Source: Oidiodendron maius Zn (taxonomy: Eukaryota; Ascomycota; Leotiomycetes; Myxotrichaceae). Taken from it: a DNA stretch of 64,000 bases. The position numbers were made by a program, and so were the translations under genes. This document shows, one piece after another, positions 18,752 to 52,329 of the stretch. Numbering within the stretch: the stretch's first letter is position 1; each line of letters begins with the position of its first letter. Below the pieces are notes generated by a model. That model was given only the letters and a program-made list of their open reading frames with translations. It did not search any database and was not told the DNA's origin. The stretch is from contig KN832899.1 of assembly GCA_000827325.1 (NCBI GenBank), positions 62,001 through 126,000 on the forward strand, read 5' to 3'.

Positions 18752-18797
18752 ACGTCTGTCCCTGCGTAGCGAGACGCACTGTGTAACGAGACGAATC
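18752..18797 (+). repeat. Left TIR of element A copy 1
   Basis: Reads ACGTCTGTCCCTGCGTAGCG then AGACGCAC. It matches the reverse complement of 29977-30022 with about three mismatches in 46 bp. TA precedes it. Confidence 0.85.
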
Positions 18798-19393
18798 TAT
18801 AGTTTTGGAATCACAATTTTTTTCTTAGTAAGTCTATAAAGTTGTTATTAATATATTACTTTCTTTAACTATTTGTCCCTAAGGAGACCACTTGGTAACA
18901 AGAAAAAGAGTGCGCTTGATTATGCTATCGATCGTTTCAATCACGCTACCGATCACCACTTCGGCTGCTCCCCCCTGTTTAATCGCGATCAGGAAAGTGT
19001 TTTCAAGATTTGGAGCATTTAGGGAAAGATTCTATAACAAAGTAATATAATAGCAAATCTTGAAGATATACAGAGAAGAAAGGAATGCAGTCCGGGAGTT
19101 TCGCCGGTGCGAGGGGAGGGACCACCACCAGCACATGTTTCAGTGCTTAGTAATGTGCATTAGCCGAGTCAGAATATACTATGTTCACGCCCGGACTCAC
19201 TATAGTCTGTAGAGCCAGGATTCTCAGGCCTAATCACGTGTTGGCGTAAGAGCAGGGTTTTCGAACATTCCATCTGCAGGTGGCTGCACACGGTTCCTGG
19301 GCACTGGAGCGCCATCTCTCGTCTCCTTCAACATCACCATCGCGACGGCAGGATAATATGGACAGAGCCAGTCAAGTCCTAGCGCAAGACGTA
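18752..19393. repeat. Left arm shared with element A copy 2
   Basis: Aligns by eye to 46874-47459 throughout: the TIR, then TTCTTAGTAAGTCTA, GGAGACCACTTGGTAACA, GAATGCAGTCCGGGAGTTTC, CGACGGCAGGATAATATG and GAGCCAGTCAAGTC all recur in the same order. No coding frame is conserved, so the arm is probably cis sequence of the element. Similarity stops near 19393. Confidence 0.85.
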
Positions 19394-19900
19394 CCTCCTG
19401 GCTTGCCTAAATCATATCGTGCTCTCGCAGATCATGGTAATGTCCCTCGCTCTACAGGATGACCAAATTGAACTCCTGCCACCATTAACAATGAAACCAA
19501 GGTTCGACGATATCATTAGTTCAAGTAGTACTCTTTTTTAAAAGGTTAAATTTATACCAAGAAAAGAGGCTGTAGAGAAAATTTCCAATTTCACGGCAGT
19601 GTATTAGGCCTTGACCTTAGGCCTCCACATATCGACCACTCCTCAGAGCTCACTCGGTTCATTGACACGGAGGATTCTCGCTAGCTTGCCGCTATTCGTC
19701 TTATTCTGCATTTTAAGCGTCTAGTAGTCATTAAATTAGAAGCAAAGCGTAGTATGTTTACTGTCCTATCTCACTAACTTCCCTAACGACGCTCCAATCC
19801 CCGTCCACGGTAAGCGCGGTTCGTAGAACGCTCTATCAAAATGCCTTTTCGCCTAAAACGTGCTCTCGAGTAAGAGGTACTACTTAGCTGAATCCTTTGC

Positions 19901-50500: not shown

Positions 50501-51376
50501 TCTAGCAACAAACTGTGTAGCTTCAGGAAATGACGCGAGGTTGAGCCCGACAGCAAATTGCTCGAAATCGACCCCTGTACTGGTCAGTTTCGTTGCTTTA
50601 GTTAGCATATCTGTAAACAACTTACCCTTGTACAACCTGTGAATCTCATCCTCTAACCGCCTGAATGCCTGGTCCTTTCTCTCGCCGTAATTCGGTACTA
50701 TAGACACATCGAAGATCCCGATTAAGCAGTACGCTGCATCCTCTTCAATAGTAGTATTCCGGCGCTTTGCCCAGGATCTGCGCTCTTTGATACTAAAATT
50801 CGATAATGCATCACCTCGGAGAGCTTTGTTTGCGATGCCAGTAACTTCGTATATCTGAGACTCAAGCGACAACTTGCTCCCTAGCCGCCCACCCTCCGAG
50901 CTAAAGAAGTCAACCAGCCTTGGTGCGATGAGCTCTTGAAGCGTCCAGCCTCGAGTGAACCAACGGCTATTCCTAAATGCTTCCTCCCATGCCCTCTGGT
51001 CATCCACCCCGTTGTCAGGCTTGGAGACATCCGAAAGGTAGACGTAGCAGCGCGCAGCGTTCTCATACCACCGAAACATAGAATTAATCGCTGCGCCAAG
51101 CTCGACCGCATTCTTCTTATCAATGCAGCAGGTATCCACCCAGAAGTATTCAAGCCCATCTACTGCGGCCTGCTTCGCGCAGAACTGTATCTTCCTCCAC
51201 CCAGCCTTGTTCACAGTCCTGCTCTTGTCCTTGCCCTTCTTCAAGTCTTGATAGATGACCTCCTCTTCTCCCCAGGTATGAGAGAGTATTGCATAGGCAG
51301 GGACTTCGCCGCTAGTAGGTTCGCGAAAGACGATCTCGCCGTCGGGTTTGCGTTGCAAGAGGCGTATGAGAGACAT
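47596..51376 (-). CDS. HET-NB-ARC-TPR NLR-type receptor (two exons; contains assembly gap)
   Basis: Exon 1 is 49948-51376. A 50-nt intron (49898-49947; GTATGT donor, TACTAAT branch, GGCAG acceptor) joins phase 1 correctly to exon 2, 47596-49897. HET domain at residues 1-245 (YAILSHTWG 28-36, YFWVDTCCIDK 78-87, RGWTLQELIAP 142-152). NB-ARC: P-loop GLGGMGKTQ (316-324), Walker B LMIYDNFDN (401-409), SIIITTRSS, and GLPLALSTAG just after the intron. Then 42-residue TPRs (NLG.LY.DQGKLAEAEAMYI.ALEG.EKALGPDH): six full ones before the gap and two to three after it. Translation falls out of frame across the gap only because the N count is arbitrary. It is expected to oligomerise on ligand sensing and trigger HET-mediated cell death. 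Confidence 0.85.
47850..49240 (-). repeat. 126-bp tandem TPR coding array
   Basis: The marker GCCTAGGTTG recurs at 47893, 48019, 48145 (cut by the gap), then 48465, 48591 and onward every 126 bp. Units are nearly identical, with changes at a few positions (Y/K after EG, A/T/I before STL, the residue before NLG). Confidence 0.9.
48148..48458. other. Assembly gap, 311 N, inside the TPR array
   Basis: Unit markers on either side (48145 and 48465) are 320 bp apart, neither a multiple of 126 nor of 3. The real copy number is unknown. Confidence 0.95.
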
Positions 51377-51757
51377 GCTGGAGGTTCGCGAGCGATCTCA
51401 TGGCAAGCGCGACTCGTATTACTTGTTCGGCATATGGCGCAAGCACTGCGATTCAAGGTCGATAGAATGCGAAGCAGCCGTCGAAGGACTGATAGTAAGA
51501 AGGATATGCCGTCGTGGTCGTAGGCGCTGCCCACGAGGCTGCGTGGCGTAATCTGGCCAGCCACTTGCATGGCGAAGGTAGACAGAACGCGAAGGGCGCT
51601 TCATTTTATTGGAAACCCTACACACTACAGACTGGATTCTAGGACAAGTTGCCCGTTGCTGAGATGCCGGCTTCTACAAAGTTGAAGAGCGGTAAGATGG
51701 TGGGGATTAAGGGGAGGGGACGGTTCTGAAGGTCCACGGTGCGTGGGACTGCTTCGC

Positions 51758-52329
51758 ACAGGCCACTTTTTGCTCTGCTCGGAGGATGTCGGAAGGCGGG
51801 ATTTTTTGGCAGATCCGCACGCAGCCACAAACGCCGTAGCCACATGTTTAGCAGCCTCGGATTTTATTACAATTTTACCGAGATTACTATAACCACACCG
51901 CCACTGATCAGGATCCTTGATCACTTGATTGGAGGAGGTATCAGCCTATGTGGTGACCGCGTATGACATAGCGCGCTCTGGCTGCCACAACACTGAGAAT
52001 ACAGTTTTAGCATTATAATAAAACCTGGATATGTATATCTAATCGTTTTATGAGTTTAAAAGGTGGAAAAAGCTTGATGGTGGTGTTGCAAGTCGAGGGG
52101 TCTATTATAGTGTCAAATGAGGGCCTTCCGTAAATTCAAGGGGGCGGCGACAACGTGGTAATAATTTTCGGAATTGATACGTCAGGAGTGTTCAGGAGAA
52201 GTATATAATACAACTAAAATAAAAATAAATAGAAATTTTTATACGTTCGCAGATTTTTAGTCGCTTGAACTCGAAGTACCTGGGTTTTGTCTCGTTACAG
52301 GGTGCGTCTCGGCACGCAGGGATAGACGT
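51758..52329. repeat. Right arm of element A copy 2 (TIR at 52284-52329)
   Basis: Aligns with 22430-22807 plus 29837-30022 and is uninterrupted, so it shows the pre-insertion state of the copy 1 arm. Confidence 0.85.

Follow-up and report, generated by a model that had tools for sequence, protein, structure and literature searches.

A Fot1-like transposon family of Oidiodendron maius Zn that probably carries HET/NLR receptor genes as its usual cargo

Elements in the analysed window

We analysed a stretch of 64,000 nucleotides from Oidiodendron maius Zn (contig KN832899.1, here C30, positions 62001–126000; called the window), which contains three elements bounded by terminal inverted repeats (TIRs), designated E1 to E3. 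Each of them carries a gene with a HET domain as cargo, and E3, which is nested in E1, additionally codes for a transposase. The elements probably represent a family of DNA transposons of the cut-and-paste type that usually carry a fungal HET or NOD-like receptor (NLR) gene. Their features are as follows (window positions, strand, description):

18750–30024, forward: element E1, TA at both ends, TIR pair 94%, arms matching those of E2
18750–19393, forward: left arm of E1, TIR plus about 600 bp, 75% to the E2 left arm
19358–19456, forward: relic of the first part of a transposase gene, inner end of the E1 left arm, MDRASQVLAQDVPPG vs. MSDRASKALAEASLPG of the E3 transposase
19901–21787, reverse: cargo of E1, HET protein of 628 aa (PF06985, E 9.7e-32)
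22430–22805, forward: right arm of E1, inner part, 79% to the E2 right arm
22806–29836, forward: element E3, inserted into the right arm of E1, with a transposase and a HET-WD40 gene; TIRs of 45 nt, 98%
24043–25992, reverse: cargo of E3, HET-WD40 protein of 649 aa; WD40, HET head 59% to residues 4–245 of the E2 protein
27427–29214, reverse: transposase of E3, 595 aa, Fot1/pogo type (PF03184 DDE_1, E 2.9e-33; PF03221 HTH_Tnp_Tc5)
29837–30024, forward: right arm of E1, outer part with TIR, 84% to the E2 right arm
46872–52331, forward: element E2, TA at both ends, TIR pair 89%
46872–47458, forward: left arm of E2, matching the E1 left arm
47596–48102, reverse: cargo of E2, last TPR part, 168 aa (TPR families)
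48084–49937, reverse: cargo of E2, TPR part, 617 aa (TPR families)
49934–51376, reverse: cargo of E2, HET and NB-ARC part, 480 aa (PF06985, PF00931)
51758–52331, forward: right arm of E2, 44 matching pieces genome-wide among the best 40 candidates scored

An initial annotation of this DNA had described two elements with TIRs of about 46 bp and TA at their junctions, and we found TIRs of 48 nt with 94% complementarity in E1 (18750–18797 and 29977–30024) and of 47 nt with 89% complementarity in E2 (46871–46917 and 52286–52332), with TA at all outer junctions. The conserved left arms were likewise confirmed by an alignment of 18750–19393 with 46872–47458, showing 75% identity over 646 columns. 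The interiors, which had been described as unrelated, gave no DNA alignment and only two short HET pieces in a tblastx comparison; that of E1 codes for the 628-aa HET protein, that of E2 for HET, NB-ARC and TPR domains over three open reading frames (ORFs), with a TPR array of 300-nt copies in steps of 126 nt that are 77–93% identical to the reference copy. The proposed common right arm of about 570 bp was recovered in both elements by its matches (E1 pieces 22430–22773 and 29848–30025 vs. E2 51761–52107 and 52155–52332, respectively), but that of E1 is split by E3. E1 had been taken for a single element spanning 18752–30022, which we had to revise: its right portion is the separate nested element E3 with its own transposase and HET gene, and E1 proper consists of 18750–22805 and 29837–30024, together about 4.2 kb.

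E3 has a length of 7,031 bp, and the first 18 bases of its TIR match the E1 sequence with a single difference. The transposase frame contains no internal stop and shows Asp 165, 276 and 312 within the motifs NMDE, ICDGFGTH and QPCDVG, which are putative catalytic residues; the relatives of this transposase have the same DDE_1 and HTH domains. When the E3 flanks were joined with a single TA, the resulting sequence aligned in register with the arms of E2 and of four further elements of the genome (L013, L028, L010 and L009), which lack TA at the point matching the E3 insertion. The transposase and the HET gene of E3 thus arrived as one unit, and the alignment shows that a transposon of predicted DDE type has moved together with a HET gene. 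A second nested element was found at C14:54783–64855, containing NACHT, ankyrin repeats and a broken transposase. It sits in the left arm of a host element with a degenerate HET-NB-ARC-TPR gene, which is 87% identical to E2 over 3.1 kb. The evidence for empty sites comes from these two nested, paralogous sites in the same genome. As a separate observation, E3 contains a repeat of about 285 bp (around 23375–23666) that is 93–100% identical at more than 30 other places, several of them at a spacing of about 5.3 kb. This repeat resembles a solo long terminal repeat of a recently active retrotransposon.

Recurrence of the termini and nature of the arms

The genome searched comprises 45.9 Mb in 58 contigs of this one strain. 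With the best 40 candidates scored per arm, the E1 left arm yielded 49 matching pieces genome-wide. An 18-mer of the TIR with up to three mismatches matched 195 times, compared to 33 times for a reversed control, by which about one in six of the matches may be due to chance, and a 22-mer of a second TIR type matched 109 times, compared to once in the control. Because these counts far exceed the controls, the recurrence of the TIRs is not a chance effect. The TIR-bounded chassis with conserved arms postulated in the initial annotation is represented by a dispersed TIR family at TA sites, with arms recurring genome-wide. For the analyses below, we used 165 distinct termini, 146 of which were derived from the matches listed (100 of 195 for the 18-mer and 100 of 109 for the 22-mer) and the remainder from arm ends.

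The left arm, which had initially been described by its length and conservation, runs into the start of a transposase gene in E1 and in the further loci L012, L020, L040 and L025. In E1, the arm reads MDRASQVLAQDVPPG opposite MSDRASKALAEASLPG at the start of the E3 transposase, a weak match (tblastn, 47% over 32 aa, E 0.015), and the match reaches residue 55 in L012 (E 8e-5), 63 in L020 (2e-12) and 153 in L040 (2e-20). L025 has this stretch at the beginning of a transposase gene that is now interrupted by stops. By these matches, a well-conserved part of the left arm, at its inner side, represents the beginning of the transposase gene. The recurring platform thus consists of the 5' end of the transposase gene with its TIR and, on the opposite side, an element end, with other genes in the interior. 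Many copies look like derivatives in which the transposase interior was replaced by another gene.

Cargo of the element family

To record the cargo, 32 elements in which both arms or ends could be recognised were selected by their arms or TIRs, never by their cargo, and their interiors were read via ORFs and Pfam matches without gene models; six of them (L021, L024, L037, L038, L039 and L040) have lost the TIR at one or both ends. HET/NLR genes were present in 25 of the 32 interiors, two of them being weak cases, which agrees with the shift test described below and with an over-representation of HET genes between paired arms, for which the initial annotation had proposed a check; seven interiors contained other genes or nothing recognised. 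The combination of HET, NB-ARC and TPR occurs in E2, L013, L014, L024, L036 and the C14 host element (with a broken HET part in the latter two), and L037 contains HET and TPR. WD40 receptors are found in L009 (degenerate), L012, L015, E3, L031 and L032, other NACHT or NB-ARC genes in L010, the nested C14 element, L033, L047 and L049, and HET genes without a recognised NTPase in E1, L021, L022, L038 and L039. The two weaker assignments are L020 (AAA and WD40) and L048 (SesA domain). The order HET-NACHT-WD40 was read exon by exon, without gene models, in L015, L031, L032 and L025. Elements range from 2.7 to 10 kb, mostly with a HET/NLR gene, and transposase-bearing copies with an NLR or HET gene are E3 (intact), L031, L025 and C14 (interrupted).

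Five further loci (L025, L016, L019, L023 and L026) were read with one end only and stand outside the count of 32; L025 contains HET, NACHT, WD40 and the transposase with stops, and HET matches are also present in L016 and L023. Loci L041–L045, which were chosen for HET, were likewise kept apart. A separate set of 32 convergent TIR pairs overlaps with the 32 elements and is not identical to them: 25 of these interiors were read, and at least three of the other seven contain HET or NACHT matches by their coordinates. Some single elements deserve mention for other reasons. L022 contains a HET gene and a separate AAA ATPase gene (AAA and AAA_lid_13; 1178–5622), possibly a two-gene cargo. The E3-type elements L030, L034 and L046 may have captured ordinary host genes, and L027 is a complete arm-bounded element (703–7091) whose frames of 495, 445 and 363 aa gave no Pfam match.

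Association of termini with receptor genes

We compared how often a gene lies within 6 kb of a TIR facing inward or outward with the numbers obtained after local shifts by 20–200 kb (2000 draws). After dropping extra gene pieces or weak short pieces (9 of 91 HET rows and 5 NACHT rows), 82 HET-NLR relatives of E2 and 145 NACHT (NPHP3_N) genes were kept. An inward-facing TIR was found at 29 of the 82 HET-NLR genes (shift mean 2.6, maximum 9) and an outward-facing one at three, and ten genes were bracketed by a TIR pair, compared to 0.5 by the shifts. For the NACHT genes, the corresponding values were 21 of 145 (mean 4.3, maximum 14) and two, with ten bracketed compared to 1.0. The Zn-cluster genes used as a control gave 0 of 150 inward (mean 3.0) and one outward. 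Using the pattern-only termini, inward counts were 26 for HET-NLR (mean 2.4) and 17 for NACHT genes (mean 3.6). The link to the TIRs is strongest for the HET-NLRs, and it is directional.

Cargo change, relatives and selection

The initial annotation had proposed that cargo is replaced between conserved arms. E2 and L009 agree with this in that their cargo differs between similar arms, with identities of 84% (about 700 bp) and 87% (513 bp): their interiors give no DNA alignment, tblastx detects nothing but the HET head, in opposite orientation, and L009 carries a NACHT-WD40 receptor reversed relative to the E2 cargo. Several cargoes have been inherited with their arms instead, as seen from E2 and L013 with 92% identity over 3.9 kb including the cargo. 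In a left-arm tree, E2, L009, L013 and the C14 host element group together (support 89). L014 and L024 are paired in the HET tree and apart in the left-arm tree, the right-arm tree placing both within a single clade of seven, and the transposon-borne HET heads occupy several places among non-transposon and foreign heads. All of these trees were obtained by a quick method with modest support, the HET tree with the Shimodaira-Hasegawa-like approximate likelihood ratio test (SH-aLRT) only.

The best full-length relatives of the E1 HET protein in its own genome share only 29–35% identity, whereas matches with 97% and 90% identity were obtained for a metagenome protein and a protein of Clarireedia jacksonii, respectively; further matches are a partial one at 58% and then long ones at about 40% or less. 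The HET-NB-ARC part of E2 has relatives with 86% identity in Lachnellula arida, 82% in Botrytis cinerea and 70–74% in several Dothideomycetes. Among the named relatives of the transposase and of the receptors, helotialean fungi such as Lachnellula, Cadophora, Pseudogymnoascus and Botrytis predominate, so that the host probably belongs to this order as well. The patchy occurrence of cargo relatives would fit horizontal spread.

Ratios of nonsynonymous to synonymous substitution rates (Ka/Ks) were determined for 19 pairs, two of which had no alignment in the frame used and two were saturated. For E2 and L013, values of 0.09 over 254 HET codons and 0.44 over 228 NB-ARC codons were obtained, and 13 more distant pairs, some with near-saturated synonymous sites, gave 0.08–0.24. 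As estimated from these codons, the E2-L013 comparison shows purifying selection in one close cargo pair. For het-d and het-e, concerted evolution and diversifying selection on the WD repeats have been described (PMC1805685), and the likeness of the E2 TPR copies (77–93%) may reflect a similar pattern.

Interpretation

The reading we favour, with a probability of roughly 0.82, is that of a Tc1/mariner-pogo (Fot1-like) family of DNA transposons that move by cut and paste and usually carry a fungal HET/NLR receptor gene. Members with a transposase are composed of TIR, arm, transposase, NLR or HET gene, arm and TIR, and most copies read consist of the TIRs with about 600 bp of the transposase 5' side, often including the first codons, and about 570 bp of the other side, with an NLR/HET gene in between. 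A transposase like that of E3 may act in trans on elements such as E1 and E2, and cargo could be exchanged through recombination, gap repair or template switching between arms, or by fresh capture. The cargo would act in recognition and cell death, and HET/NLR genes might be kept either because diverse receptors are favoured or because receptors help the element; the role in incompatibility or cell death is putative.

Several observations weigh against this reading. Seven of the 32 interiors contain either other genes (enoyl-CoA hydratase in L030, a short-chain dehydrogenase in L034, and Zn-cluster and hydrolase genes in L046) or nothing recognised by ORFs and Pfam (L011, L027, L035 and L040). 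Among the 150 best-scoring HET domains, which are mostly stand-alone, only 12 had an inward TIR, compared to 4.1 by the shifts, with six outward, and two were bracketed compared to 0.84. When five HET-NLR loci were chosen without known arms, four had no such TIR and L041 had a single one; by these four, receptors also live outside the transposon. At the nested C14 site, the joined arm carries about five extra bases, and the TA at both ends of all 22 elements listed is partly given by construction, because TA belonged to the search pattern. Moreover, the genome searches cover the best-scoring candidates, and the TIRs considered are those among the matches listed.

The mild enrichment of stand-alone HET genes near TIRs, and the fact that HET genes are very common in this genome (at least 150 places, 481 candidates), would suit an ordinary Fot1-like transposon favouring the repeat-rich compartments in which HET/NLR genes reside, so that the two are mere neighbours. 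We consider this very unlikely, as the TIRs face the genes (29 inward vs. 3 outward for HET-NLR, 21 vs. 2 for NACHT genes), the shifts by 20–200 kb control for the compartment and 25 of the 32 elements read have such genes enclosed by their two ends; together with the Zn-cluster control, the contrast of directions and the local shifts led us to reject neighbourhood bias as a sufficient explanation. Segmental duplication of HET clusters with the arms as passengers is hardly credible: E2, L013 and the C14 host element do have arms and cargo that were duplicated jointly, but homology stops at the TIRs, the nested insertion shows one TA, and the flanks are unrelated. Similarity outside the TIRs, which had been named as an observation that would speak for duplication, amounts to two short hits (33 and 41 bp) in a comparison of 42 flank pieces taken from 22 elements, and we reject this explanation within the flank lengths read (up to 600 bp).

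The sharing of arms and cargo by the same three elements also speaks for the idea that a single NLR entered the transposon on one occasion and that both diversified jointly, with cargo being inherited and not swapped. DNA alignments between the HET heads of many cargoes show 65–71% identity, and six of the seven HET-NB-ARC-TPR or HET-TPR elements have the same orientation relative to the arms, as expected from a single joining. Yet L009 carries its reversed NACHT-WD40 receptor between arms that group with those of E2, L013 and the C14 host element, the sister HET heads of L014 and L024 are apart in the left-arm tree (although in the same clade of seven by the right arm), and the E1 HET protein has no close relative in its own genome; the HET tree (with the support given above) does not favour a single cargo origin, and we regard it as improbable. 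A further scenario, which has some plausibility, is that genes are captured at random and that selection for diverse receptors preserves those copies in which HET/NLR genes are present, whereas others decay, with no special tie to NLRs. The three elements with unrelated genes, the four with nothing recognised, the polyphyletic HET heads and the low Ka/Ks values would agree with it, but transposase-bearing copies carry NLRs as well (E3, L031, L025 and C14), and the degenerate copies L009 and the C14 host element hold NLR pseudogenes, showing NLR cargo to be common even where selection lapsed. Such survivorship is compatible with the favoured reading and not an alternative to it, and our estimates are not meant to sum to one.

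It is slightly more doubtful whether the receptor is part of the strategy of the transposon, forming an active alliance in which an interchangeable allorecognition or immune receptor serves the element. If this were the case, nuclei with and without the element would be incompatible, and carriers would be favoured or loss punished; alternatively, the receptor may guard the host against rival elements or viruses. Arms and receptor would then constitute a mobile and modular cassette for self/non-self recognition, giving rise to new het loci in the same and in other genomes. In fungi, het and NLR genes are known for fast turnover and patchy distribution, for which duplication, the shuffling of repeats and, more recently, Starships have been discussed as routes. 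TIR transposons of small size with a receptor as the usual cargo, sometimes together with a transposase, would represent a second and far more nimble vehicle. About one third of the HET-NLR relatives of E2 (29 of 82) lie within 6 kb of inward TIRs of one transposon family. Whether transposons use immune receptors or receptors use transposons has been a loose question, and it becomes tractable with these elements.

Other features of the window

Directly left of E1, two DUF3723 frames are present (15343–17313, forward); DUF3723 has been named as a common Starship gene (PMC12134995). A palindromic repeat of about 195 bp just left of E2 (46627–46821), with 36-nt arms of 94% complementarity, resembles a miniature inverted-repeat transposable element. 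Inverted repeats of 41 bp (60867–60907 and 62450–62490, 95%) enclose about 1.5 kb with a DUF7726 gene (61398–62159), possibly another small TIR element. A dispersed repeat occurs in two pieces (94% and 81%) at 3885–4601 and 30380–30785, the second copy being close to the right end of E1, and a non-LTR retrotransposon at 8783–14823 (forward) consists of a 745-aa frame without Pfam match, followed by one of 1269 aa that contains endonuclease, reverse transcriptase and RNase H. No strong signal of repeat-induced point mutation was seen in loci L001–L028 (TA/AT ratios of 0.72–1.2). A lone TIR hit in a scan of viral contigs (L029) was taken as chance, its frames looking phage-like.

Comparison with known systems

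A TIR or Fot1-type element as a carrier of fungal HET/NLR genes was not described in the literature searched, in which subscription papers are thinly covered, and the accessible parts of PMC12258605, PMC12134995, PMC10799480, PMC9594970 and PMC1805685 contain no such element. The main text of PMC10799480, a screen of transposable element co-option across fungi, mentions neither NACHT nor NLR as far as it was accessible. The nearest precedent is provided by the Starships, mobile elements that are reported to carry HET and NLR genes as well (PMC12134995, PMC9594970). Starships move by a DUF3435 tyrosine recombinase and contain many genes. In contrast, the elements described here have a DDE transposase, TIRs of 45–48 bp, TA sites and one or two genes. 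No match to the DUF3435 captain was found in 27 of the 38 window ORFs of at least 150 aa, including all large ORFs of E1–E3, a result that would be compatible with a Starship extending beyond the window.

With typical Fot1/pogo (Tc1/mariner) members, the elements share the TA site, the TIRs and, in E3, a transposase with DDE_1 and HTH_Tnp_Tc5. Such members are compact, of about 2 kb, with the transposase as sole gene, whereas E3 has 7.0 kb and a second gene; compactness is typical and not strictly defining. Gene-bearing TIR elements are known from plants (Pack-MULE or Pack-TIR) as non-autonomous copies in which a host-type gene replaces the transposase interior. This may resemble our elements, in which a gene takes the place of most of the transposase and a relic of its start is kept; in contrast to the plant elements, one cargo class dominates, whole receptors and not gene fragments are carried, and transposase-bearing copies have cargo too.

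The cargo itself resembles HET-E and HET-D in the order HET-NACHT-WD40 and in the likeness of repeat units within a gene; these receptors are treated as host genes in PMC1805685, which notes a transposable element relic beside one pseudogene, whereas here many lie between transposon ends. The transposon superfamily is known; its dominant cargo class here, HET/NLR genes, is unexpected.

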